DNA of 45,496 bases, taken from IMG/VR virus record IMGVR_UViG_3300025896_000041, positions 1-45,496 of that record; one strand, written 5' to 3'. This DNA is from a virus. The notes beneath the pieces are model-generated. The model saw nothing but the letters and a program-made list of their open reading frames with translations. It ran no database searches and had not been told where the DNA came from. Positions 10,712 through 31,339 of this stretch are shown here, piece after piece (position 1 is the first letter of the stretch; each line of letters opens with the position of its first letter). Position numbers and translations under genes: made by a program.

Positions 10712-12853
10712 ATGAAAACATTTGATGAGATGGAGTATCACCCAACCTCAGAAAAGCTAGTCAACATCCTGTGCAGCAAAACCCAGAACAGTAATCCACT
10801 GTTCTTCAGGGTACTGGTTGGCTACTACTTCAGCCTGGTGGCTTCCATGATGCGAACCACCATCGCTACACATGACCGCGGTGACATCCCTGTAAACATG
10901 TACGCACTGAATCTCAGTACGTCTGGCTCAGGCAAAGGCTTCTCGACAAACATCATCGAGAACCAAGTCATCAACCAGTTTCGCAGCAGGTTTCTGGAAG
11001 AAACGTTCCCGATCCTGGCAGACAACAACCTGCCAAAGCTTGCCATCAAGCGAGCCAATCGCAAGAGCACTGATCCGGATGAAGAACTCATCCGTGTTCA
11101 GAAGGAGTTCGAAGGTCTGGGCACTCTGGTGTTCAGCTTCGACTCAGGCACGCCTGCAGCGGTCAAGCAAATGCGCCACAAGCTGCTCATGGCTGATGCC
11201 GGTTCGATGAACCTGCAGATCGATGAGATCGGTTCCAACTTGGTTGGCAACATGGATGTGCTCGACACATTCATCGAGCTGTACGACATGGGCCTGATCA
11301 AGTCGAAGCTGATCAAGAACACTTCGGACAACGTTCGCAACGAAGAAATCATCGGTCGCACTCCGACCAACATGATGCTCTTCGGTACTCCTTCAAAGCT
11401 GCTCAATGGCAGCAAGACAGAAGAAGAGCTGTACTCGATGCTTGAGACTGGCTATGCCCGTCGATGCTTCTTTGGTTACAGCCGATCTTCCAACAACATC
11501 GAAGATCAAACGCCAGAAGAAATCTACGATCAGCTGACCAACAAAGACGCCAACACGTATTTGGAAGAGCTTTCAGATCGACTGGAGAACTTGGCTGACA
11601 TCATCAACGTCAACAAGCGTCTGGTGATCAGCAAGGAAACCAGTCTGCTGTTGATCGAGTACAAGCTCAAGTGCGAACGGGAAGCCAAGATTTATCCTGA
11701 GCATGAAGAGATGAAGAAGGCAGAGATCTCGCATCGCTACTTCAAAGCTCTGAAGCTCGCAGGCGCTTACGCTTTCATTGATGACTCTACTGAGTTGACT
11801 CAAGACCATCTTTATCAAGCCATCAAGCTTGCTGAAGAATCCGGTGAATCATTCAACCGATTGCTTACTCGAGATCGCGCTTACGTAAAGCTGGCCAAGT
11901 ACATCGCCACCTGCAAGCGTGATGTCACGCAAGCGGATCTGGTGGAAGACTTGCCGTTTTATCGTGGAGCCACAGGTCAGAAGTCAGAGATGCTGAGCTT
12001 GGCCATTGCCTATGGCTACAAGAACAACATCATCATCAAGAAGTCTTTCTCGGATGGCATCGAGTTCCTGCGCGGAGAAACGCTCAAGGAAACCGATCTA
12101 GCCAAGATGGTGATGAGCTACAGCACCGACATGACGACTGACTACCGTAATGAGACAGCGCCATTCGATCAGCTGCACAAGTTGGTTCAAGCACCTGGCA
12201 TGCATTGGGTGTCCCATCATCTCAATGGTGGCTACCGCAACGAAGAGAACTGCATTCCAGGCTTCAATCTGGTGGTGATCGACGTTGACGGTGGAGTGAA
12301 TCTCAGCACCGCAAAGCTTCTGCTCAAGAACTACAAGGCGCTGTACTACACGACCAAGCGACATACCGATACCGAGAATCGTTTCAGGATCATTCTGCCC
12401 ATCAACTACGAGTTGTCCATGGACGCCAAGGACTACAAGGAGTTCATGAGCAACATCTACGAATGGCTTCCATTCGAAGTGGATACCGCAACCAATCAGC
12501 GTGCACGTAAGTGGCTGACCCATCCAGGTCACTACGAGTACAACGAAGGTGAGGTAATGGATGCCCTGCCCTTCATTCCAAAAACATCCAAGAATGAAGA
12601 ACGCAAGGAATTGATGAACTCTCAGCAATCCATGGACAACCTGGAGCGTTGGGTCATCAACAACATCGGTGACGGCAATCGCAACAACATGCTGCTGCGC
12701 TTTGGAATGATCCTGCTGGATGCTGGTTTCGACTTTGAAACTATTCGCAGTCGAGTCATCAATCTGAACAACAAGATTGCAGACAAGCTGGATGAAGCAG
12801 AGATCATGAGCACCATCATGATCACAGTCGCAAAGGCCATCGCCAAGCGTTAA
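10712..12853 (+). CDS. Primase-helicase: N-terminal P-loop ATPase, C-terminal AEP-type primase
   Basis: This 713-residue protein has two parts. Residues about 1-330 form a P-loop ATPase like the DUF3987-type phage helicases: Walker A SGSGKG at 71-76, and an LQIDEIGS acidic segment that fits Walker B. Residues about 480-620 look like an archaeo-eukaryotic primase fold: catalytic D524-x-D526 in VVIDVDGG, and H551 in the KRHTDTENRFRIILP strand that supplies the conserved sxH. The region in between (320-480) is helical. It would unwind DNA and lay primers at the phage fork. No DNA polymerase gene is in this window, so the partner lies outside. Confidence 0.8.
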   Translation: MKTFDEMEYHPTSEKLVNILCSKTQNSNPLFFRVLVGYYFSLVASMMRTTIATHDRGDIPVNMYALNLSTSGSGKGFSTNIIENQVINQFRSRFLEETFPILADNNLPKLAIKRANRKSTDPDEELIRVQKEFEGLGTLVFSFDSGTPAAVKQMRHKLLMADAGSMNLQIDEIGSNLVGNMDVLDTFIELYDMGLIKSKLIKNTSDNVRNEEIIGRTPTNMMLFGTPSKLLNGSKTEEELYSMLETGYARRCFFGYSRSSNNIEDQTPEEIYDQLTNKDANTYLEELSDRLENLADIINVNKRLVISKETSLLLIEYKLKCEREAKIYPEHEEMKKAEISHRYFKALKLAGAYAFIDDSTELTQDHLYQAIKLAEESGESFNRLLTRDRAYVKLAKYIATCKRDVTQADLVEDLPFYRGATGQKSEMLSLAIAYGYKNNIIIKKSFSDGIEFLRGETLKETDLAKMVMSYSTDMTTDYRNETAPFDQLHKLVQAPGMHWVSHHLNGGYRNEENCIPGFNLVVIDVDGGVNLSTAKLLLKNYKALYYTTKRHTDTENRFRIILPINYELSMDAKDYKEFMSNIYEWLPFEVDTATNQRARKWLTHPGHYEYNEGEVMDALPFIPKTSKNEERKELMNSQQSMDNLERWVINNIGDGNRNNMLLRFGMILLDAGFDFETIRSRVINLNNKIADKLDEAEIMSTIMITVAKAIAKR

Positions 12854-17349: not shown

Positions 17350-20300
17350 TTACTTGATCAGCGCCATTGCTGACTTTACCGTAGCCAGTTCCTTCAAGGA
17401 ACCCAGATAGTCAAACGGACCGCTTCTGATCGGGTTGTTGCCAAGGTGATGGATAAACGAACTATCCAGAACGATGGGGCCCAAACTCATAAAGTTTCCA
17501 AGCAAGACTGTACCCAATACCCTTGCAGGATTCTCCTTGGCCAGATCGAGCAACGGCTTCTGGATACGCAGGAAGTACTTGGTAAACGCCGTGATGCCCA
17601 TGTCGTCCGTGTACTGCAGGGCTCTGTGCATCGGGATGTCGTAGTTCACGAAGTAGTCTGACGCTTTCTGAATTGCATCTGCTTTGCTAAGCGGGTTTTT
17701 TGCTTTCGTCGTCAAGTGCTGATACAGCGCATAGCGAGCCACGAAGTCAGACATCTGCGTAATCTTACTCAGCGTGTTGTACATCTGACCATCACGGGTC
17801 ATGTAGATCGCCTTGCCGATATTGACGATGTTTGGATTGAGCTTGCTCGTTGCTTTCTCAACCTTTTTGGTAAGTGCCGACTTGTAGCTGTACACATCGT
17901 CTTGACCGCTCAGGTCTTCGACAATCGTCGGCATCAAGCCAGCATCGATCAGTTCCTTCACCGGGTTACGGGCAAGCGCATCTTTCAAGCGAATGATCTC
18001 ACGCTTGATCTCTGCTTCCTTGCCTTGCGTGTAACCCGTGTCAAGCATACTCTGCAGACGGTTAAGTTCCTTGTCGTGCTTTTGATATGCAGTCGCTGCT
18101 TTCAAAGCCACCAGGCTGTGTTCTGCAATAGCCCAAGGAGACATGCCAGCAAGAAGCAGCAATGACTTGTTGCTGAAGATGTTGCCCAACATCACAGTAC
18201 CGGTTTTGACAACGATGATGTCTTTGGTTTCACGGACGATCTCTTGCCATGCACGCTCAGTGCGAGCCACGTACACAGCTGCTCGTTTGGCATAGCGTTC
18301 TGCTGCTCGATCATCCATGCCCAGCTTGTTGCTGGCGTAGGCAGTCAGCAGCCATTCCACTACACCCACGAAGATCTGCTCATAGGAGTTCAAGGACTTG
18401 AGTTCCTTGTTCTTTACAAACTCCATACCTAGATCTGCATACTGCTTGCGCTCTGCTTCTGCCCGCTTGAACATGTCAGCCATCGAAAACTTTCGATAAC
18501 CAAAGATCATATCGAGCGAGTCTGCACGAACCAACATGCCGTCTTTGCCCCAAATTTCTCTGGCATCGATCTGTGCTTGGCGCGGCATCAAATCCCAAAT
18601 TTCACGCAGTTCAGGATCTCCTGTGTTGGGTCCGATCAAAACGTAAGCTGCGCGGTTCATTGCGTAGTTGGTTTTGAACTCTTCATGCAAGGCTTCGATC
18701 ACAACCTTGTTCTGATCTTTGGTCGTTTCCTTGTCAAAGATCGAACCAGCAAGCACACCGAGTAGCTTGTCGAAATCGTTGTTACGCTCCAGCAGATTGT
18801 CCTTGGTCTTTTCCTTCATCAAATAACGCCAGTTCACGATCTCACCCTGCTCGTTGTACACAGGAGCCAGGTTGTTGCCGGTATCGCCCGACATATCACG
18901 ACCAGGATTATTAGTTTGCTTTAGCAAACCAAGCTTGTTGTTCGTGATCGTGGCTTGAATGATCGAGTTCTCAAGGCCAGTTGAAGTCGTAGCATCTAGA
19001 AAGCCATTGTGCTGCTCCGTGCCCTTGGCTCTCAGAGTCTGCGTGTGCATGGCGCCTGATACGCGAGGCGTGACACCTACACCTCTCAACGCAAACAGAA
19101 TCATCTGTTCGCCGTAAGGGTTGGCTCGATCAAGCATTAAATCATCAACGCGCTCATAGCCTTGATCAATCAGATCTTGTGCGCCTTGCTCCGTTGCCAA
19201 CTCCAGCTGAACGTATGGGTTGTACACCTCAGGCGTGTAGGCATGCTGCATCAGAATCGGATTGCCCTTGAACAGCTTTTCAAGGGATTCCTTTTCAAAA
19301 GCCTTTTGCAATGCCATGACGTACTCAATGCCGTTGCCATCATTGCGATTGTTTTCAGTACGCATGACTTCTTTGGCACGCATCTGTTGTTCAACCCGTG
19401 TAGCTCGTAGTGCATACAGCGAAACCAGCATCTTGATTGAAGGCTCAGCAGCGACTGCTGCTTCTTCAGTGATGCGACTCGAGTACGTTTTGTCGCCAAG
19501 CATGCGAGCAATGATGTGCGAGTTGTTCATCAGGAAGCCAACCACTTCACCATTGGCCAGGTGCGATCCCAACACGTTGGCTTGAAGGATGTAGTTGTTC
19601 TTCATCGGACCAGTCAGCTGGCCTTCGTACTTCGTGATTGCAGCTTTGAGCGCAGTCGGGTTGTTCAGCAAGTCCTCAATTTCTGCCAGCGAGTAGTCCA
19701 CGGTGAGGTTATGCAAGCCAGTACGAAGGAATACCTTGGTAATGCTTTCCTTGTCTGTCCGGCTCAGGTCTTTACCATCGTTGGTAAACGACTTGCGTGA
19801 GAACTCCGAAGTCTGATCGATGACCGACTTGCGGGTAGATTCAAGCTTCTTGGTTGCACGCAGCACCAGCTGAAACAGTTTGTTGTGGCCGGTGACTTCC
19901 TTGAGCATGCTCATTGCAATGCTTTGGCGGTTCTTAACGTGCGCAGCATGGAAAGCCTGAATGCCTTCCAGTGCAGCCTCGACACGTTCACCTGCAATCG
20001 TGCGAGCCAAAGAACCTGCAGTACGAACGATGCTGAGGCTGCTGTCTCGCACCAAGTCAGAACTGGCAATCTTGACGATGCCGTCTTTGATGTTGGTCAC
20101 AACCTTGGTGACACCCTCTTCTACCGGGCCAAGGTAATCCGTGGCCTGCAGTCTTGCAGCAATCTGTGTGCGACGCTTGGCTTCGATGTCCACCAGCTGT
20201 CCGACCAGGATCTCCAGCTTTGCGTCTGCGTCTTGTCCTTGAAATGTATGCGTGATCTTCTCGTTGAAGAAGTTCAAGATCTTTTCAAAGATATTCTGCA

Positions 20301-23300
20301 GACGTTCTGTGAATGACTCACCTTCTCCATACTTGCTGGTATCTCGATCTGTTGCAATCTTCAGCAGGCTGTTGAACTTTTGGCTACCCAGACCCATGGC
20401 CGCAAAGCGTGCAATGTAATCAGAGCGACCATCGCTGCCAGCTTCCAGCTTGAACACAAAGTCGTAGTCTTCCTGCGAATCGAAGTCCGAAGGTTTTAGC
20501 GTCTTCTGAGCAAAGGTGTAGAGCTTGTACAGTTCCCGGTAGGCTGTACGTGCTTGAGGCTCGTTTGCTTCCAGTGCCGCACGTACTGTGGCTTCGATCT
20601 GCTGCATCGCAAAGTCTTCCTGCGCGCTGCCGGCAAACCCCGAACCAACGATGCTCGATGCAAACGGTGCCGCCCCTGTCTCCATGGCTTTCAGCCATGT
20701 CGCCAGTGGGTTGCCGGCTTCCGTCTTACGCATGGCCTGAGCAAAGGCGCCATACGGTCCGTGGAGCTTTTCTACGATGCTACCTAACAGGTTGCTAAGG
20801 TGCTTGCTGAATGCAGGGCTCACAGCGCCTGTATCCAAGCCTTGGAAGATGTCTTGCGTCGTGTACTGCTCGATAGCCTGCTGGGTTTCCTGAGCCAGGT
20901 TCAAACCCGTGTTTTCTTTGGGTTTGTTTTGTGCAGCTTCAGCAAACAAGCCAGACACATTGGCAAACAGCACCGCCACTCCGTTGTTGACGTTCTCGTC
21001 AGGATTCTTGAACAGCAACTGACTGACTGCTTTGATAAACGCTTCCAAGCCGGTCATCAGCTTGTTCTTCTTGGTCTTCGATTCCATGCTGATCTTGCTC
21101 AGCACAGCACGTTGAAACTCCAGATTGGTCATACCCCAAGTCACGAACTCTTGAACATTCTCAAGAGCTGCAGAGAATTGCGTCAGTCCATTTTGCTTTG
21201 CAAATTCTTGGGCTTTGATTCGCAGTGCGTCGAGCTCAGCAACCAGTTCAGCAGCTGCTGCACTTGGGTTGTCGATAGTCTGGGCAATTGCTGCGTGAAT
21301 CAGTTCATGCAGCAAAGTCTCAGCAGTCAAACCAGAGTTGACAAACTCAGGGCTGAGAACGTAGATCTCTTCTTTACCATTCTTGAGAACGTACCAACCA
21401 CGCGCACTTGTAGTCGGTTTCTCAAGCGGCATGTCAGCAGACGTTTCAGGCGTCACGTACTTGATTGACAGATTCGGGCTGACTACCCGACTAATCAAAC
21501 CAAGGATCTTGCGATTGATGCCATTCAGGCGCCCTGGCGCAGCCAGCAGCTTGATGACATCTGCTGCACTGGCATTTGGATTGGCATCAAAGAACTCCAC
21601 CAGATCAGTGTCGCTCTTGATAGTCGGTGTTCCTAATTTGCCAAACGCACTTTCGACAGTGGCAATGACAGGCGATTCTTGAGGAGTCGGTACGTACTCC
21701 GTGCTGAAGGATTCAGCAATCTGCTGTAGAGCATCCGTTTCTTGCTCCGTTAGATCGCTGGTAAGGTCAGCACGCATTGCTTGAGCAGCTGCTCGATCTT
21801 GCTCAGTAACTTCGTAGTTACCGTCTTGCATTGCATATTGGTCGATGGCTTGCATCTGACCTAGCACTTCCAGACGAACACTGTCTGCACGAAAAGCCAT
21901 GCTTCTGGCGCTAGACAGCATGTCGCCCAACAAGGTAGCCGCACTGGTTCCCTCTTTGATAGAAATGTCGGCAATGACATCCATGACTGCATTGCGTACT
22001 TCGATTGGCGTGTTTTCTTTAGAAAGCAGCTGAGCCAATCCTCTGATAGTGCGCGACAACGCATCAGCCATTTCTGTGGCCGGCGAGTAGTTCAACATCG
22101 CGTTCCAGGTAGACTGGTTTAAGCTACGTGCCACATCCCCAAGGATGCCAACACCAGCACCGCGTGCATCGTGAACGTTCAAGCTGTCGCCCGGATTCTC
22201 AACACCATGAGAGATGGCGCTGTCTGTCGAGTGAGCACTCATCGGCAGCATGGCTACACCAGGCTCGGACGCTACGACCTCAACGCCGTTGACATTGGAC
22301 GATGCAGCGTTGTTGTCTGTGAAGTGTGATCCAAACTTGATCTCGCTCTGGTAGGTACTTCGAGTACTAAGCTTGCGCTCGGACTTCGACATGTTGATAC
22401 CAGACTTCAAAGACTTGCTTTCCTTCGACATCAGCGTGTGCAGAATCGGAGTCAATGCACTCAGACGCTTACGCAACTCTGCTTCCTGTTTTGCAGTCAG
22501 GTCATGCAGCGGTGCTTTTGTTGTCGGGTTGACTTCAATATCTCCTGAAGCCACAAGCTCTGCCAGATACGCATCTTTTAAACTGGTGTATGCCGCGTTG
22601 TAGATTTCAAACGCTGTCTTGGCAGATTTGTTGAATGACTCTCTACGCTCAATGAACGTCTTGAACTCTGTTTCCATCGTGCTCTGAACTGTCTTGCCGA
22701 TGGTGTCCTTGAAGCTCTTCTTTAGAGCTTTGATCTGGCCAGGATTAAATTCAAACTCCATCAATCTTTCGACAGACATTGCAGGAATGGTTGCCCCTTT
22801 ACCCATGATCAGCAACGTGTTGATGTGTCCAATCACGGTTCGTACATCGACCTTGCCAGCAGCTACGTCTTCAATGCCCGCATAGATCGATTCGACAAAA
22901 CCATTTGCCATGCTATCGACTGCAGTAATGACCGATGAACCAAACACCATTGCAGTCAACGGTGTCTTGATGATGTTTCTGCCTGCTTTCGTAACCGAAC
23001 CATCTTTGTCAGCAAGCGTTCCGGTGAATGCATAAATAGCATTCAACGTAGCACCCAGTGCAGGAGTCTTGTTCAACAAAGACTGAACAGCTTGAGTCAT
23101 CGACAACGCAGTCTGTTCGTACAGATCTCGATGACCAATTGCTTCGCGCCACAGGTTGTACTGGCTGTGTTTATTGCCCTGCTCGTAGAAACCGCCACGA
23201 TTCAGCAGCTTGAACAAATCTTCTGCAGTCTCTGCCGCACCCAGCATTAAATGACTGAGCATTGGTCCGTTGGTGACGCCATCAACCTCGCCCATCATTT

Positions 23301-26300
23301 GGACAGTAAATTCATTCTTTCCATCCAACCTGGCTTGTGCTTCATGAGCCAATGCCATCAACGCATCGAGCGAATGGAAGTTTTGGCCACCGGCTTTGAC
23401 ACCTGCGACCAAGATCTTTTCTTCTGCTGGCGTGATGCCACCTTCGAACACCGACTTGCGCAGCACTTCGACTGCAGCTTTGATTTCTGGTGCGCCGACG
23501 TAGTTGTCATAACCAGCCAACGATGTAGCGTTGCTTTGCTTGTCAGTCTTGACTCCAAGACCTTCGAGCACGCGCAGACGGAAGTTGTCCATCTGAGCAT
23601 CGTTATTCATGTCGAGCTTGGTTTCCCAAGCTTGGCGGTAAAGCATGAAGCGGTGAATCTTGCTGGTCTGTGGATTGATTAAATTAGTGGCGATACCAAC
23701 TCGTTGTTGCTTCCACACCGAGTGTTCAAAATACAGCGGCGCTTCCATGTCAGCCATGCCGGTGACAAACATCATGAACCGTTCAAGCTCACGCTTGAGC
23801 CCGTCATTCTTGGCTTGTCGTCCCAGTCTGTTGGATACGTGAACACCTTGCTCGCTAACTTCTTCGACACCAGCAATTGCTAGTGCAGTGTCCTCACCTA
23901 GTTGAGAGATCAGTTGCACCATGTCTTGACGTACAAAACTTGGTACCGAGTTCTCTTGTTCAATCACCTTGGCAAGAGTCGCAGGCACTCCTTGGCTAGT
24001 ATTGCGCGTGGTTTGCTGAGTGAATGGCACAGGCTCATAGCTTGGTTCTTTTAGTGCAGACTCAACTGAGAACAATTTGTCCAGCACACCTTGACTACCA
24101 GTGATTGCTTTGACGATCTCTTTGACTTGTTGAGTAGTTTCAAACTCAGCATCTCGAGCCAAACGCAAGAACTGGAACTTGGCGTTGGCTTGGGTTTTTT
24201 CGCTCTTGGTCAGCCCAGCCATGACTTCACCAGTCACGGTAGTACGCTCAAGGATTCCCTGATCCATCAGCAGCTTCATGATGTGGGCGCCAATTGCGCT
24301 CTCAAGCTTTGGCATCAGATCGCGTGGGGCGTCTTGCTTGGCTTTCAAACCAAGAGCTTGAATGGCGCGTTTACCTAAAGCGTTGATGACAATGTTTTGT
24401 CTTGCGCCAACCATGCCAAGAGTATTGCGTTCTTCCTGAGTAACAAGCTCGGTTTCCGGACGATCCAGAATGATGTTGATTTCTTCGTCCGTATTGAATG
24501 CTGCACGGGATGCAACTTCTGCAATCCAGCTGAATGCAGCGTAGCTCATTGCAGTCTTCAGGTTCTCTTCGATGTCTTTCTTGCCGTTCGTTTCTACGAC
24601 AAAGAAATTCATCATGTCTTCAAACCAGAACTCTTGCTTTTTGTTGCCAAGGTTCTTGGTAATGTTGCTTTGCCACGCTTTAGCTTTTGCTTTGAAAACA
24701 CTGATCGCTTCGGATTGTTGGGAGCTGAGCGAATCAATGCTCAGAAAATCCATGACCGATTTTGCAGACTGACTTAGAAAATCCTTGACTGCCACCAGTG
24801 GACGCCCAGATGCATCAGTTGCTTTGTCTTCGGACTGAACAAAGAAATCGGCAATCAAATTGCGAAGCTGATACCTAGTCCCCTCCGGGGAGGTTTGTTG
24901 GAGGGCTGATAGCGTTCCAGGCTCCACAACAAAAGCCATGTCTTCTGTAGGATCTGCTGTCTCAGTACTTTCCACTACAGGCTGCTCAGCTTCTGTAGTT
25001 GCAGCAGTTTGTGGAACAGTCTCAGCAGCCGGGGCTGTAGCCTCTTCAGTTGACTGGTTTTGAACTTCAACTGCAGTAGCTGCTTGAGTCTGTTCAGTAT
25101 TCGCAGAAGAGGCGGGAGCCTCTTCAGCAACTGCAGTAGTCGAAGGCTCTTGGACTACTCCGGATCCGGTTCCTTCAGCGGTAGTGGCTGTTTCAGTTGC
25201 TCCACTGCTTTGAGGTTCTGCAGGAGCTGCTGCCTGTCGTGCCGGTTGCTCCGACTGGCTCGATGATCCTTCGCTCGGTACTTCTTGTTGCTGTGATACG
25301 TCCTGGACATTGGCTGCTCCCTGCTGCGTGGCAGACTGCGTGTTGAACTTCACCTCGTAGGCGGATTGCAGTTCCGTTGCTGCAGCGGTAATAGCGGTTG
25401 CTTCGTTCTCGATGCGTGGAGCCAACTTGAACGTAAAGTTGTTGACCAGCACGCCACCCTCGGCACGGAGGGCATCTCGACCTTCTTTTGTCATGCCATC
25501 AGCCGTTTCCGTGAACCATCCACGGTTACCGTCGCTGCGTACCTGACGCCAGACAGCATCCTTGCGATAGAGCTCGAATGCGTCAGCAACGGCTTTGGCT
25601 TTGGCCAGATGGTCTTGCTTAAACTTGTTCAGCAGCTCCAGCTTTTTGTCAGCCAGCGCCTGATTGCCTGCTGCCAGTGCCGCCGTGATCTGTGCGCGGT
25701 ACTGCTCAATGCCCACGTTCTTGATTGCGCTGCCGGCAGGCGAGCCGTACAGAATCTCGTCGGACACGTTGTTCTTGGACTTGATTGCGTTCGCTGCAAT
25801 CCGTGCCGCCGAGAACGACCTCAGGTACGCACGCTGAGGCTCCGTCAGGGCGTTGCCAGCGTTGTTGGCAAGCTCGGTAGCTGTCTTGGCATCCAGAAGC
25901 TCTGGCGAGGCCATAGACAGGTTGATAATGCGGTTCGCAGCTACCTGTGAGGCCGCGGTGGTTTCAGGCGTGCTGGAATCAGCTGGGACGTTGAGCGCCG
26001 CCAGGTCTGCAGCAAGATCAGTCTTGCCCGCTACCGTCTGGTTGAACTCCGTGATGGTTTTGTTTGCGTCGGCCAGCTGCTTGTCGATGCTGGCCAACTG
26101 ATCCTTGTAACCTTTGATCTCGGCACTCGAATCTCGAAGTGCCATCGTTTGAAGTTCTTCTTCAAAGAACGCAATGCCATCGGTGTATTCAGCAGCAGTC
26201 TTGACATCCGCAGGATCAAGATTTGCCAGACGCTCTTTCAGCGTAGCCAGCTGTGCTTGCAGCCCACTTGGAGTGGTGCGATCCAGGCTGCTTTGAATGT

Positions 26301-27759
26301 CGATTCGTTGAGTTTCGAGGTCGGAGATGATCTTCGAGGCTTGCTCGAGGTTGGCTTGTCTGGCCTCAGGCGTTGTGGTGTCCAGCTTGCTGTTTTCATG
26401 CAAGGCATGGACTGCAGTGTCCGGAGAATACGCTTTGCTTTTTGGATCCAGCAAAGCAGTAACATCACCGGTCTGGATTGCAGTTTTCAGTACGTCTGTC
26501 TTGTTTGTCTGGTCTTTGCGAGCCAGCAGCTTCTCAGGAGTTACGCCAGATAGCTCAGCAAGCGTTCTACCGCCACCACTGAGCGTTGCTCCTGATACGC
26601 CACCAATGACCGAACCAGTAAAGATATCCGTGGCAGTGACATCCTTGCCAGTGATATTGCCTTCCATGTAAGTCTGGTAACCCTCGGTAGGCGCCTCAGA
26701 CGCAAAGCCAGCACCTGCTGCTTTACCGATGTTCTTCAGGCTTTCCTTGAATCCGGTGCGTGTTGCGTCAACAGCACCTTCTGCAGTCTTGCGACCCAGC
26801 TTGGTGACACCCAAACCAACAACGTCACTGCCCTGCTCCGCAGCTGCAAGGCTTGCGGACTTCATGGCCATCTCAACCATCAGTTCTTTGGGAGGAAGTT
26901 GCCCGTTGTTTTCCTTGGCGTAGTTCTCGATGAACTGCTGGTAGTTGTCTGCAGCGTAGCCAATGTTGCTGGCCAACATGGCTGCTTTGCCCGGAGCACC
27001 CGCAAGACCGACAAACAGTTGCGGAGCGTTCTCAAGAACAAACTCCCTCACGGCAGCAGGATTAGACAGGACTGCTGAACCAGCGTTGTAGAAGATCTTT
27101 GCCAGACCTTCTACGGCATTGACCGAACCACCAAGTACATCGCCATTCGATGCTGCATCAACGCCAGCAGATAGCTGAGCCCAAGGCTCTTGAAATCCTT
27201 TCGACAGATCCTTGGTGAGATTGTTGCGATTGGTTGGATCGACAATCTTGTCGAGATTGAAGAAATCCGTGACTTGGCGAGAAGTCTTTCGATTGGCTTC
27301 CGCATCCATAAAGCCCTGACGAATAGTCTTGTCAGAACCAGGATTACGTCGATCCAGAATCAAATTGTCGATAGGCGTTCCTTGCCCAGACTTGATCCTG
27401 TTCCACGCATTGGTGTCTTCCGCAGACTGACCCATGTCAGCTGTGGTTGCCATCAGGCCAGGAACTACTGACCCAACTTGACCAGCAAGTCTGGACGTAC
27501 CAGCAACTAAGGATGCAGCGTCATTGACCAGATTGCTTGGTACTTCCCCAGACGGCAATCCAAGACGCCCAGCCCAGGACTCGCTTACGATCTTGTCATT
27601 GGCAGCTTTGGTTGCCATGAACTGCTCAGCAGCATCACGATGCTCTTGCAGATCGACCATCTTTGCTTTGGATGCGGCTTCCAGATCAGCAAGTTTGCTG
27701 TCTACATTACTAGTTGCCGCTTTAGAAGCAAAATAAGCATCGAGGTCGAAAGATGGCAT
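17350..27759 (-). CDS. N4-type virion RNA polymerase (vRNAP), giant ejected protein
   Basis: The 3469-residue size is close to N4 vRNAP (about 3500). T7/N4 single-subunit RNAP motifs occur in order. R1353 lies in QQRVGI...NPQTSK (T7 WRGRVY...NPQ). Motif A is EVDGVTNG with D1493. Motif B is R1594-xxx-K1598-x7-F1606-G1607. Motif C is VHDARG with D1864. The polymerase core spans about 1200-1950. Before it, residues about 805-940 are a low-complexity Gln/Ala/Glu/Thr linker. After it, HELIH (2151-2155) is a zincin-like motif, followed by NVQEF. The last 1200 residues are helical and carry a hydrophobic stretch. The protein would be packaged, ejected, and transcribe early genes with SSB. Motif B has Phe where T7 has Tyr639. 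A 19-bp dyad abuts the start codon. Confidence 0.9.
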   Translation of the reverse strand: MPSFDLDAYFASKAATSNVDSKLADLEAASKAKMVDLQEHRDAAEQFMATKAANDKIVSESWAGRLGLPSGEVPSNLVNDAASLVAGTSRLAGQVGSVVPGLMATTADMGQSAEDTNAWNRIKSGQGTPIDNLILDRRNPGSDKTIRQGFMDAEANRKTSRQVTDFFNLDKIVDPTNRNNLTKDLSKGFQEPWAQLSAGVDAASNGDVLGGSVNAVEGLAKIFYNAGSAVLSNPAAVREFVLENAPQLFVGLAGAPGKAAMLASNIGYAADNYQQFIENYAKENNGQLPPKELMVEMAMKSASLAAAEQGSDVVGLGVTKLGRKTAEGAVDATRTGFKESLKNIGKAAGAGFASEAPTEGYQTYMEGNITGKDVTATDIFTGSVIGGVSGATLSGGGRTLAELSGVTPEKLLARKDQTNKTDVLKTAIQTGDVTALLDPKSKAYSPDTAVHALHENSKLDTTTPEARQANLEQASKIISDLETQRIDIQSSLDRTTPSGLQAQLATLKERLANLDPADVKTAAEYTDGIAFFEEELQTMALRDSSAEIKGYKDQLASIDKQLADANKTITEFNQTVAGKTDLAADLAALNVPADSSTPETTAASQVAANRIINLSMASPELLDAKTATELANNAGNALTEPQRAYLRSFSAARIAANAIKSKNNVSDEILYGSPAGSAIKNVGIEQYRAQITAALAAGNQALADKKLELLNKFKQDHLAKAKAVADAFELYRKDAVWRQVRSDGNRGWFTETADGMTKEGRDALRAEGGVLVNNFTFKLAPRIENEATAITAAATELQSAYEVKFNTQSATQQGAANVQDVSQQQEVPSEGSSSQSEQPARQAAAPAEPQSSGATETATTAEGTGSGVVQEPSTTAVAEEAPASSANTEQTQAATAVEVQNQSTEEATAPAAETVPQTAATTEAEQPVVESTETADPTEDMAFVVEPGTLSALQQTSPEGTRYQLRNLIADFFVQSEDKATDASGRPLVAVKDFLSQSAKSVMDFLSIDSLSSQQSEAISVFKAKAKAWQSNITKNLGNKKQEFWFEDMMNFFVVETNGKKDIEENLKTAMSYAAFSWIAEVASRAAFNTDEEINIILDRPETELVTQEERNTLGMVGARQNIVINALGKRAIQALGLKAKQDAPRDLMPKLESAIGAHIMKLLMDQGILERTTVTGEVMAGLTKSEKTQANAKFQFLRLARDAEFETTQQVKEIVKAITGSQGVLDKLFSVESALKEPSYEPVPFTQQTTRNTSQGVPATLAKVIEQENSVPSFVRQDMVQLISQLGEDTALAIAGVEEVSEQGVHVSNRLGRQAKNDGLKRELERFMMFVTGMADMEAPLYFEHSVWKQQRVGIATNLINPQTSKIHRFMLYRQAWETKLDMNNDAQMDNFRLRVLEGLGVKTDKQSNATSLAGYDNYVGAPEIKAAVEVLRKSVFEGGITPAEEKILVAGVKAGGQNFHSLDALMALAHEAQARLDGKNEFTVQMMGEVDGVTNGPMLSHLMLGAAETAEDLFKLLNRGGFYEQGNKHSQYNLWREAIGHRDLYEQTALSMTQAVQSLLNKTPALGATLNAIYAFTGTLADKDGSVTKAGRNIIKTPLTAMVFGSSVITAVDSMANGFVESIYAGIEDVAAGKVDVRTVIGHINTLLIMGKGATIPAMSVERLMEFEFNPGQIKALKKSFKDTIGKTVQSTMETEFKTFIERRESFNKSAKTAFEIYNAAYTSLKDAYLAELVASGDIEVNPTTKAPLHDLTAKQEAELRKRLSALTPILHTLMSKESKSLKSGINMSKSERKLSTRSTYQSEIKFGSHFTDNNAASSNVNGVEVVASEPGVAMLPMSAHSTDSAISHGVENPGDSLNVHDARGAGVGILGDVARSLNQSTWNAMLNYSPATEMADALSRTIRGLAQLLSKENTPIEVRNAVMDVIADISIKEGTSAATLLGDMLSSARSMAFRADSVRLEVLGQMQAIDQYAMQDGNYEVTEQDRAAAQAMRADLTSDLTEQETDALQQIAESFSTEYVPTPQESPVIATVESAFGKLGTPTIKSDTDLVEFFDANPNASAADVIKLLAAPGRLNGINRKILGLISRVVSPNLSIKYVTPETSADMPLEKPTTSARGWYVLKNGKEEIYVLSPEFVNSGLTAETLLHELIHAAIAQTIDNPSAAAAELVAELDALRIKAQEFAKQNGLTQFSAALENVQEFVTWGMTNLEFQRAVLSKISMESKTKKNKLMTGLEAFIKAVSQLLFKNPDENVNNGVAVLFANVSGLFAEAAQNKPKENTGLNLAQETQQAIEQYTTQDIFQGLDTGAVSPAFSKHLSNLLGSIVEKLHGPYGAFAQAMRKTEAGNPLATWLKAMETGAAPFASSIVGSGFAGSAQEDFAMQQIEATVRAALEANEPQARTAYRELYKLYTFAQKTLKPSDFDSQEDYDFVFKLEAGSDGRSDYIARFAAMGLGSQKFNSLLKIATDRDTSKYGEGESFTERLQNIFEKILNFFNEKITHTFQGQDADAKLEILVGQLVDIEAKRRTQIAARLQATDYLGPVEEGVTKVVTNIKDGIVKIASSDLVRDSSLSIVRTAGSLARTIAGERVEAALEGIQAFHAAHVKNRQSIAMSMLKEVTGHNKLFQLVLRATKKLESTRKSVIDQTSEFSRKSFTNDGKDLSRTDKESITKVFLRTGLHNLTVDYSLAEIEDLLNNPTALKAAITKYEGQLTGPMKNNYILQANVLGSHLANGEVVGFLMNNSHIIARMLGDKTYSSRITEEAAVAAEPSIKMLVSLYALRATRVEQQMRAKEVMRTENNRNDGNGIEYVMALQKAFEKESLEKLFKGNPILMQHAYTPEVYNPYVQLELATEQGAQDLIDQGYERVDDLMLDRANPYGEQMILFALRGVGVTPRVSGAMHTQTLRAKGTEQHNGFLDATTSTGLENSIIQATITNNKLGLLKQTNNPGRDMSGDTGNNLAPVYNEQGEIVNWRYLMKEKTKDNLLERNNDFDKLLGVLAGSIFDKETTKDQNKVVIEALHEEFKTNYAMNRAAYVLIGPNTGDPELREIWDLMPRQAQIDAREIWGKDGMLVRADSLDMIFGYRKFSMADMFKRAEAERKQYADLGMEFVKNKELKSLNSYEQIFVGVVEWLLTAYASNKLGMDDRAAERYAKRAAVYVARTERAWQEIVRETKDIIVVKTGTVMLGNIFSNKSLLLLAGMSPWAIAEHSLVALKAATAYQKHDKELNRLQSMLDTGYTQGKEAEIKREIIRLKDALARNPVKELIDAGLMPTIVEDLSGQDDVYSYKSALTKKVEKATSKLNPNIVNIGKAIYMTRDGQMYNTLSKITQMSDFVARYALYQHLTTKAKNPLSKADAIQKASDYFVNYDIPMHRALQYTDDMGITAFTKYFLRIQKPLLDLAKENPARVLGTVLLGNFMSLGPIVLDSSFIHHLGNNPIRSGPFDYLGSLKELATVKSAMALIK

Positions 27760-27839: not shown

Positions 27840-30773
27840 TTACCTCCACGGCATGTGGCTATATGTTTCTGGGTCAATAGGATTGACTCCGCCCCATAAT
27901 CCCACTCTGTTTTTCTTGGCAGTAGCCTGCAATGCAGCAAGAGTTGGATCTTTGGAGTATCGCCCATAAAGCCAAGCCATACCCTGTCGAATCATTTCCG
28001 TACTGACATCCTTGCCTTCAATCTCGATCTGACATGATGCACGACCATACTTTGCATTGCCTGCACTTGCTTCTTTGGATACTCGCAGTGTGACTTCCTT
28101 ATTCAGAATCATCTCTTCTAAAGTCTTCTTGGCTTCATTCCCATAAGGTTGTGCCGGCTTGTTGCTGTACTTTGGATGTGCGACTTCAGGAGCATTGATA
28201 TTATCAATACGACAGTTGATCGTTGATCCATCAGCACGCTTTACATATGCACCGTCACCATCTGAAACTCCTGTGACTTTCCCAGGCTCAGCAGCAAACG
28301 TAACTACTGTTTTAGTCTTTGGTCCGGCGCTTTGAACTGAAGGATCAGCTTTAACAACAGTGACTGGCTGACTCCATTGAACGTCCGGAACTTTAGTAGG
28401 CGTTTTAGAAGGTTCAGCTGCACCTGTTGCTAGATTCAATGCGACATGCGTAGTTTCAGGTTTGACGACTTTGGTTGTGGTCTGTCCTTTAGCATCGATT
28501 GTGGGTACTGAGACTGGCGCAGGTGCTTCGAATGCACCCAAAGACTTGGTAGGCGTAGGTGAGTTACCAAGCCCATCCATAGGAAGCGAACTGGGTGACT
28601 GTCCCGGAACAGGAGCAGTCACCGCAGGCGCAGCATCACTTACCGGAGACTTTTTTTTTAAGTCCTCACGCAAGGCTTTTTGTTCCAACTCAAACGCAGC
28701 ACGACGGGCTTTAAGATCTGGTGTGTTCACACTAGCTTGACGACGCTGTTGAATACCATCCGAGTAAGGAGTCAGACTACTTAGAAGACCGTTGTCTGGA
28801 ATGTACGGAATGTTTGCACCAAACGCATTAGGAACGCGAAGCAGAGTGTTAGCAGCACCCATTACTCCACGTACAGGCAAAGTAAAAATATCGTTGAAAG
28901 CTGCACTTACATCTTCAGCACCACGACCTGCAGTTTTAACTGCACCAACAATTGCTTTTCTATCTTCTTTATCTCGCGCAGCTATTTCCTTATCCAGATA
29001 CTTTTGGACTTCAGGAGATACGGCTTTACGAACGCCAGCATTAACCTCGTCCTGCTCAAGTGCAGCTTGCTTGCCCAGCAATGCACGCTCTAGTCGTGCC
29101 GCAGCAGCTGCAGGAGTCTCTGGTTTTGGTGCATCCTTTACAGGAATAACAGCAGGCTTGTTTGGTGCAGGAACAGCAGCGCCAGGAGCAACAACAGCAG
29201 CTGGACTTGATGCAGGCGCTGCACCCATGCGACCGATTACTTGATCAACGTATTGACCAACGGTTGGATCGTTAGGACGTTCCTTGTTTTTCCAATCTCG
29301 GTTGATGCTGCCATCTTTGTTGACCGCACCTTCACCACCATAGTAAGCCGCAGCTACTTTTGCAGGATCACCATCGTATTTGTTATTCAGGTAATCAACC
29401 CATTTGAAACCAGCATCTTTGTTATGTTCAGGATTCGTGTGCTCATAGCTTTTAGGAATGAGTCCAAGTCTTTTCATATCAGCAAACGTGGTGTCCTTGA
29501 CTTGCATCGGACCTGTTACGCCCTGACTGTTTGTCTTGGATGTATCAGCAGTACCTCTGCCAGATTCCTGACCAAAGATTGCATTGGCAATTCCTCTGGA
29601 ACCACCAGTAGCAGCTGCACTGGCTGCACGATCAATTGCTGAAACATTGCCCGCAGGAGCAGCGCCAGCAGGATTACGATTTGCGGATTGCAACGTAGCT
29701 CGCAAGCCACCCAAGTTTTCGCGTGCAGCAGTCTCTGCAGCAACGCGAGTAGCTTCACGTTGAACGTAAGCAGGACTCTTTTTGAGAGAAGCCAACAGTT
29801 CTTCGGACGTAGGGGGCTTGTCACCAAACCACTTGTTCCACAAACCATCCGGCTTTACCGAACCAACAGCAATGCTTACCTTCTCTTCATCAGTCAAATA
29901 CTGATTGGAAGGATCCGCAGTAATGCGTGCAAGTTGTTGAGCAACTTTAAAACGAGTTGCCTCATCAGGAACCATTGCTTTAAGAATGTCCCCAACTTCA
30001 GACTTTCCACCGCCACTACCACCACTCACGCCTGCACCACCACTATTTGGAGCAGCAGTTGCACCCAATGCTTTAGTAGCAAGGGTGACTTGTTCCATCA
30101 GCTTTGCAATACCTTCATTATGAAGTTTGGTTTGAGCATCCTGTCGAGCTAAAGGAATATCTGTGGCTTGTGCGTTGTTCAGGTTCGAATTAGCAACTCC
30201 ATTTGCAATGGTTTGATTGCCTGTTCGCTGAGCAAGATCAAACGTTTTATTTCCTTGATCAACAGTACGGGCCTGCTGAGCAAGCATCCAGCCTTGAGGA
30301 AGATTTGGGTTGTCTTTCAAGAAAGCTGCTTTTTCTTCTGGCGTACCTGTCTCCATAATCATGCGACCTTGGGCCATCACAGGCTCGAGTGCTGTGTCTC
30401 TAACCTTTGTCGTGTAGTCGTTACCCGCCAAGACTTGATTCTGCAATGCTGTACGGCGTGCATCTTGCAAGCCAAGCACTTCACCACGAACGTTAGGCGC
30501 CAAAGCCTGAAGCCGCTGAGCCAGCATCTCTTGCACGCCTGGTGCATTGAGTTGTTCAGGCGTGGTGTAGCCCTGCATCAGCGTCTGGTAGTCCAGCTTT
30601 GCATTCTGCTGTTCAGTAACTGTGTTTGCTGCGTCAGTTGCCTCACGCTGCTTAAGGAGATTGCCAAGGGTGTCGAACGAAGAGTTAATGCTTCGTTGAG
30701 CCGACTCCATTGGACGAAGCGAATCAGCAAGATTCGGTGCGTTTACGTTCTGCCAGGTGATTGGGTTAGCCAT
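27840..30773 (-). CDS. Internal virion protein: lytic transglycosylase + SNase-like domain
   Basis: The 977-residue protein has three parts. Residues 1-380 are helical, Gln/Ala-rich. A lytic transglycosylase domain at about 392-490 carries catalytic E403 in FGQESGRG, then GVTGPMQVK and AAYYGGEGAV. After Ala/Pro-rich linkers, a staphylococcal-nuclease-like domain covers about 828-970: SDGDG (D838, D840), R855, APE with E863, YGR with R911, and a final GLWGG. The Ca-binding Asp40 position is Asn860, so nuclease activity is uncertain. Transglycosylase domains in internal virion proteins cut peptidoglycan as DNA enters the cell. The start overlaps the previous stop (TAATG). It lies directly before the vRNAP gene, so both probably travel together from the particle. 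Confidence 0.88.
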   Translation of the reverse strand: MANPITWQNVNAPNLADSLRPMESAQRSINSSFDTLGNLLKQREATDAANTVTEQQNAKLDYQTLMQGYTTPEQLNAPGVQEMLAQRLQALAPNVRGEVLGLQDARRTALQNQVLAGNDYTTKVRDTALEPVMAQGRMIMETGTPEEKAAFLKDNPNLPQGWMLAQQARTVDQGNKTFDLAQRTGNQTIANGVANSNLNNAQATDIPLARQDAQTKLHNEGIAKLMEQVTLATKALGATAAPNSGGAGVSGGSGGGKSEVGDILKAMVPDEATRFKVAQQLARITADPSNQYLTDEEKVSIAVGSVKPDGLWNKWFGDKPPTSEELLASLKKSPAYVQREATRVAAETAARENLGGLRATLQSANRNPAGAAPAGNVSAIDRAASAAATGGSRGIANAIFGQESGRGTADTSKTNSQGVTGPMQVKDTTFADMKRLGLIPKSYEHTNPEHNKDAGFKWVDYLNNKYDGDPAKVAAAYYGGEGAVNKDGSINRDWKNKERPNDPTVGQYVDQVIGRMGAAPASSPAAVVAPGAAVPAPNKPAVIPVKDAPKPETPAAAAARLERALLGKQAALEQDEVNAGVRKAVSPEVQKYLDKEIAARDKEDRKAIVGAVKTAGRGAEDVSAAFNDIFTLPVRGVMGAANTLLRVPNAFGANIPYIPDNGLLSSLTPYSDGIQQRRQASVNTPDLKARRAAFELEQKALREDLKKKSPVSDAAPAVTAPVPGQSPSSLPMDGLGNSPTPTKSLGAFEAPAPVSVPTIDAKGQTTTKVVKPETTHVALNLATGAAEPSKTPTKVPDVQWSQPVTVVKADPSVQSAGPKTKTVVTFAAEPGKVTGVSDGDGAYVKRADGSTINCRIDNINAPEVAHPKYSNKPAQPYGNEAKKTLEEMILNKEVTLRVSKEASAGNAKYGRASCQIEIEGKDVSTEMIRQGMAWLYGRYSKDPTLAALQATAKKNRVGLWGGVNPIDPETYSHMPWR

Positions 30774-31339
30774 TATCGAACTCCATATTGAGCCATGTAG
30801 TCCGCTGCTGCCATGGAATCAGGTCGCTCAATGTTGCGACGAACTTGACGATCATTAAGTGCTGCGTTGGTCGTTCGTTTCTGGTTCTCGTAGTTCTTGA
30901 GAGCCATGTCTTTCTGGAAGTTGAACGAGTCTTTGGCAAGGCCATACTGCTGCATGCCTAGATAACCATTGAACAGTGCAGAGCCGGCACCTAGAGCCAA
31001 GCCACCCCAGCCATCTGTCTTGATTCCTTTTGCGTCAGTGGAACCTACAAGACCAGTACCTTTGGCCCAGTTACCTAACTGGGACCAAATACTTGGGTCT
31101 ACCGTACCGGTACCACCAAGAGAAGTATTTGGAAGCGAGCCCATGATTCCAGCGCCACCACCCATTCCGCCTAGATCACCCATCTGAGGCGCACCCCAGT
31201 TGGAGCCCATTGAATAGTTGCCACCGCTGAAGCCTTCAGCAGTAGTCATCTGAGAGTTGATGTCTGGATAAAGGTTTGGTGGAGCCACCAAGCCGTTGCC
31301 ACTTACGTTCCCATATGTTGGTAGTTTCATTCCATTCAT
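30773..31339 (-). CDS. Small Gly-rich virion protein, probably internal or ejected (188 aa)
   Basis: The 188-residue protein has a Gly/Asn/Met-rich N-terminal half (about 1-90) and a C-terminal helical half (GLALGAGSALFNGYLGMQQYGLAKDSFNFQKDMALKN..) with a mildly hydrophobic start and a long amphipathic helix. The layout resembles the small internal core protein of T7-like phages (gp14), but I see no sequence proof. ATGA and TAATG overlaps place it in one translation unit with the transmembrane protein and the transglycosylase. Confidence 0.7.
   Translation of the reverse strand: MNGMKLPTYGNVSGNGLVAPPNLYPDINSQMTTAEGFSGGNYSMGSNWGAPQMGDLGGMGGGAGIMGSLPNTSLGGTGTVDPSIWSQLGNWAKGTGLVGSTDAKGIKTDGWGGLALGAGSALFNGYLGMQQYGLAKDSFNFQKDMALKNYENQKRTTNAALNDRQVRRNIERPDSMAAADYMAQYGVR

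Follow-up and report, generated by a model that had tools for sequence, protein, structure and literature searches.

The window analyzed here is a 45.5 kb IMG/VR fragment (IMGVR_UViG_3300025896_000041; 45,496 nucleotides) from which the early region appears to be missing. Its minus strand encodes the large terminase, portal, tape measure and major head proteins, ejection-cluster proteins and a giant virion RNA polymerase (vRNAP), and its plus strand carries genes for a ribonucleotide reductase, an exonuclease, a DNA primase, a Sak4-like protein and a single-strand binding protein. The vRNAP gene is a 3469-codon open reading frame (17350–27759, minus strand) that runs without interruption. It lies within the ejection/structural cluster, adjoining 27840–30773 and 30773–31339, after which come the major head, tape measure and portal genes. 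The 977-residue ejection-cluster protein beside it (27840–30773, minus strand) contains a lytic transglycosylase domain (SLT, residues 393–495) and a C-terminal staphylococcal-nuclease domain (residues 855–960); the ejection proteins of N4 appear to be without peptidoglycan hydrolase activity (PMC12633501).

The product of this gene is an N4-type (Schitoviridae) virion RNA polymerase. Residues 142–3464 match phrog_2206, the virion RNA polymerase family, with an E value of 0, and the polymerase core adopts the N4 mini-vRNAP fold, which bears out the identification made in the first-pass annotation. Like other enzymes of this type, it is a giant single polypeptide in the ~3400–3500 residue range, homologous along its length, and it contains the catalytic residues of the T/DxxGR motif and of motifs A, B and C, as well as an aromatic residue preceding the motif B glycine. 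The protein has no cysteine at all, as likewise reported for the LUZ7 and LIT1 vRNAPs (PMC3715699).

The catalytic residues can be placed individually (all coordinates in this paragraph are on the minus strand). Arg1353 (23701–23703), in a T/DxxGR-type motif that reads KQQRVG, corresponds to N4 Arg424 and T7 Arg425, while the catalytic Asp of motif A, Asp1493 (EVDGVTNG; 23281–23283), corresponds to N4 Asp559 and T7 Asp537. Gly1498 (23266–23268) is the equivalent of T7 Gly542, a small residue that has room for a 2'-OH; the bulky gate that DNA polymerases carry here is absent. Motif B (22939–22980) is formed by Arg1594 (22978–22980), Lys1598 (22966–22968), Phe1606 (codon TTT; 22942–22944) and Gly1607 (22939–22941) in the arrangement R-x3-K-x7-F-G; the first-pass reading of Lys at +4, Phe at +12 and Gly at +13 from the arginine was exact and is confirmed in frame. 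Further downstream, His1843 (22231–22233) corresponds to T7 His784 and N4 Ile925, and Asp1864 (VHDA; 22168–22170), the catalytic Asp of motif C, to T7 Asp812. Directly past the polymerase core is a zincin-type HExxH sequence, HELIH (residues 2151–2155; 21295–21309). This motif is present in all of the ~55 full-length vRNAPs that we examined (residues 2228–2232 in N4) and is known from the N4 C1 domain (PMC12633501) and from N4-like RNA polymerases (PMC5512222).

The assignment of Phe1606 to the site of N4 Tyr678 and T7 Tyr639 is given by both alignment and structure. A phmmer comparison paired IIKTPLTAMVFGSS of the window vRNAP with N4 IAKNPLTITIYGSG (E 6e-15), a profile built from 63 relatives found the N4 mini-vRNAP at E 3e-55, and in the multiple alignment Phe1606 and N4 Tyr678 occupy one column. 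A lone T7 sequence matched the vRNAP profile only weakly; a T7-family profile of 71 T7-like polymerases gave a full-length register, with an E value of 0.0037 that applies to this single comparison. In the profile-profile alignment the T/DxxGR motif, motif A, Arg627/Lys631/Tyr639/Gly640, His784 and motif C of T7 RNAP are all collinear with the window enzyme, providing the T7 equivalences listed above for Arg1353, Asp1493, Gly1498, His1843 and Asp1864 and pairing Phe1606 with Tyr639. The core was predicted by AlphaFold2 with a mean pLDDT of 91.4, and in the model the motif B helix (core residues 402–416) ends at Phe417, which is Phe1606. The superposition on the N4 mini-vRNAP (3c2p) that had been proposed at first pass was carried out and gave the best fit (Z 27.7, rmsd 3.6, 678 residues), followed by T7 RNAP (Z ~20) and mitochondrial RNA polymerases. 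A different Tyr at the selector site, which had been named as the finding that would speak against a natural Phe, was looked for and not found, the profile and the model both giving Phe1606. The Phe is also not a sequencing or frame artefact, which is ruled out by the open frame and the agreeing relatives.

In single-subunit RNA polymerases, ribose selection is by textbook account the task of Tyr639, and the Phe mutant at this position is a workhorse in the synthesis of 2'-modified RNA. In T7 RNAP this Tyr senses the 2'-OH via a metal ion, and the Y639F substitution reduces rATP/dATP selection from ~120–140-fold to ~5–7-fold with His784 still present (PMC9836923), in line with the earlier statement that the Tyr-to-Phe change weakens ribose selection. 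Mutants of T7 RNAP link a second residue, His784, to ribose choice; it has been described as contacting the ribose 2'-OH (PMC11617373), whereas other work places it in the hybrid's minor groove, where it would act as a probe (PMC4551944).

A natural Phe is not peculiar to the window phage, as many relatives share it. It is found in 72 of 170 distinct relative cores, among them the nearest metagenomic relatives, dozens of IMG/VR cores, LIT1, the KPP21-like phages TUMS_P10 and AM.P2, Littlefix, phCDa and TEMp-D2. Tyr is present in N4, Zuri, phiAxp-3, Rhizobium N38 and Gutmeister and in the Vibrio, roseophage, Pectobacterium and Acinetobacter members examined. GenBank contains 83 records whose identity to the LIT1 core is 60% or higher, a count by sequence identity rather than by the residue. 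The Phe codons are split between TTT (44) and TTC (28), indicating that Phe has been kept through synonymous change. Among the 71 T7-like polymerases, Phe at the Tyr639 site is absent (0/71), all 71 having Tyr together with His. The substitution itself was already noted as 'Y678F' for LUZ7, LIT1 and PEV2 in the legend to Suppl. Fig. S2 of Ceyssens 2010 (PMC3715699), where the guessed effect differs from relaxed sugar choice. A large sub-group of N4-like vRNAPs has thus inherited this Phe and kept it, and Phe-bearing members have been on record since 2010. The first-pass annotation had raised the case of Phe being common among N4-like polymerases of normal sugar selectivity, and the common part of it holds (70 of the 168 cores in which both the Tyr639 and His784 sites are readable); on the selectivity part, we found no report on natural Phe-type N4-like polymerases in the accessible literature.

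Comparison with named systems places the window enzyme more closely. The vRNAPs of LIT1, TUMS_P10 and AM.P2 match the window enzyme in having Phe at the position of Tyr678 and His at that of His784; for PEV2 and LUZ7, grouped with LIT1 in the Migulavirinae, Phe is known from the published remark, and the LIT1/PEV2/LUZ7 group is ~38–41% identical to the window vRNAP in the core. N4 gp50 and its mini-vRNAP resemble the window protein in giant size, fold, the T/DxxGR motif, motifs A, B and C and the HExxH-containing C1 domain, with ~16% identity over the structural alignment, but N4 has Tyr678 and Ile925 where the window has Phe1606 and His1843. T7 RNAP shares the motif order and His784; the wild-type enzyme has Tyr where the window has Phe, the residue also carried by the Y639F mutant. 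The middle RNA polymerases, LIT1 RNAP2 (L525, 3727–4968) and N4 gp16 (L526, 1461–2675), are T7-like and have Tyr with His. LIT1 therefore combines a Phe+His virion polymerase with a Tyr+His middle polymerase (RNAPII), and the change to Phe in this phage is specific to the virion enzyme; the N4 RNAPII likewise keeps Tyr+His.

The new element in the present analysis is an association between the Phe and the residue at the T7 His784 site. Among the 168 cores with both sites readable, all 70 Phe enzymes have His and none has another residue, while the Tyr enzymes have Ile (40), Gln (28), His (28), Thr (1) or Ser (1). The changes underlying this pattern are few, 7–9 between Phe and Tyr and 9–12 between His and other residues (7 and 9 on the first tree, which was built without the columns around both sites). 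A model of correlated evolution was preferred over independence with a likelihood ratio of 26.6 (4 df, p 2e-5), and His1843 ranks first of 145 columns by this measure, the next column reaching 19.2 and the median 6.7. Because unrelated columns also show inflated ratios, the rank is a safer guide than the p value. The ratio was 22.9 without the N4 group, 26.6 after thinning and 29.6 on a second tree of 168 tips, and the dependence also holds with a Tyr+His root. Of 115 simulations under independence with at least 40 Phe and at least 40 non-His tips, none was free of Phe without His. An independent-pairs sign test, which has low power with 6 usable pairs, gave 2–3 pairs in the same direction and 0 against (median p 0.25). 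The His column was picked after the alignment had been seen, although T7 work singles out His784 beforehand. Five Phe cores added once the rule had been noticed all had His (5/5), a weak test because His is common among the relatives of those cores.

The fitted model allows Tyr-to-Phe change on a His background only, with His lost several times faster in Tyr than in Phe enzymes; the separate transition rates change when the N4 group is removed, and only the Phe–His dependence stands. Within the Phe clade, L147 and the clade of L069, L128, L139 and L152 have Gln rather than His and, with it, Tyr rather than Phe. Tyr+His enzymes also occur inside or beside the Phe clade (L162, L199, L043–L045 and L050) and are possibly returns to Tyr with His kept. 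Two further cores, L215 (NPVMITNFGSA) and L509 (KPILLLTMFGKS), have His at the partner position together with a Phe whose motif B context is unlike that of the main clade. On the first tree L215, whose sister is Tyr+His, counts as an independent case of Phe. Co-variation with Phe extends to further columns close to the pocket, namely Ala1603 and the residues flanking Arg1353 (23698–23706), Val1354 (likelihood ratio 18.8) and Gln1352 (12.2), and that of the two flanking residues raises the possibility that the sugar pocket was reshaped as a whole.

We consider it on balance probable that the window protein is a standard N4-type vRNAP with an inherited Phe, in which the ribose check falls mainly on His1843, the product is RNA and selectivity is perhaps below that of N4. 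By analogy with N4, from which encapsidation and hairpin early promoters are also taken over, the enzyme would be ejected with the phage DNA and used for early transcription. Gly1498 would leave space for the 2'-OH and so let the pocket admit ribose; in an enzyme that lacks the Tyr hydroxyl, positive sensing of the 2'-OH would depend chiefly on His1843, perhaps assisted by Gln1352 and Val1354. The product in the cell would then be RNA and selectivity would be largely kept, with discrimination against dNTPs possibly somewhat weaker than in N4. The breadth of the Phe group, the occurrence of Phe only with His and the Gln lineages with Tyr point this way, and set against them are the 5–7-fold selection left in T7 Y639F, the minor-groove placement of His784 and the small number of changes. 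His is fixed in Phe lineages, whereas drift would be expected if sugar choice were irrelevant, which favors sensing that is shared with or shifted to His1843. Conversely, T7 Y639F loses most discrimination despite His784, so His alone may not restore it. That these phages form a natural clade lacking the Tyr hydroxyl, with the ribose check re-wired onto the His784 site and an altered sugar tolerance, is a plausible proposal somewhat short of probable.

A sloppy ribo/deoxy choice by the Phe enzyme is possible judging from the residue itself, which occupies the same site and an adjacent motif as in T7 Y639F. On this account the Phe enzymes would discriminate poorly against dNTPs, and the phage would tolerate this through rNTP pools far larger than dNTP pools and the few polymerase copies making early mRNA. 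The loss of selection in T7 Y639F, which His784 alone does not rescue, supports it, but drift of the His is seen among Tyr lineages and never among Phe lineages, and where His is missing within the Phe clade the motif B residue is Tyr; we regard this account as doubtful. The first-pass suggestion that another residue does the job of the Tyr fits the evidence better than relaxed choice, given that Phe is always accompanied by His at the His784 site. Rather unlikely, in our judgment, is a neutral or structural swap of Phe for the similar Tyr, in which His would be linked through packing, translocation or a minor-groove check of the base pair and would have no role in sugar choice. It draws on the further roles of Tyr639 in translocation and gating, on the minor-groove description of His784 and on the additional co-varying columns (Val1354, Gln1352 and Ala1603), yet Phe persists over deep divergence with no flickering, and the top co-varying column is the sole other residue from the T7 ribose-choice mutants. 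Mixed RNA/DNA products, also proposed at first pass, are unlikely and found no support, and their use as transcripts or primers in the biology of the phage appears very improbable: only the identity of the residue speaks for it, whereas an N4-type DNA primase (10712–12853, plus strand) is among the phage's own genes, and both the second ribose-contact site and the Gly542 equivalent are kept.

The natural Phe clade and its evolutionary partner residue offer a direct test of how ribose is distinguished from deoxyribose, and, through the Phe–His association, the idea of altered sugar choice comes down to a few kinetic tests. The Phe-type vRNAPs are also a natural set of enzymes to screen with 2'-modified substrates. 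One such Phe+His vRNAP is encoded on a 75.9 kb contig of a bacterial assembly (Vreelandella venusta NBRC 102221, NZ_BJUL01000016.1; L522), whose length suggests that it is a whole N4-like phage genome inside the assembly.
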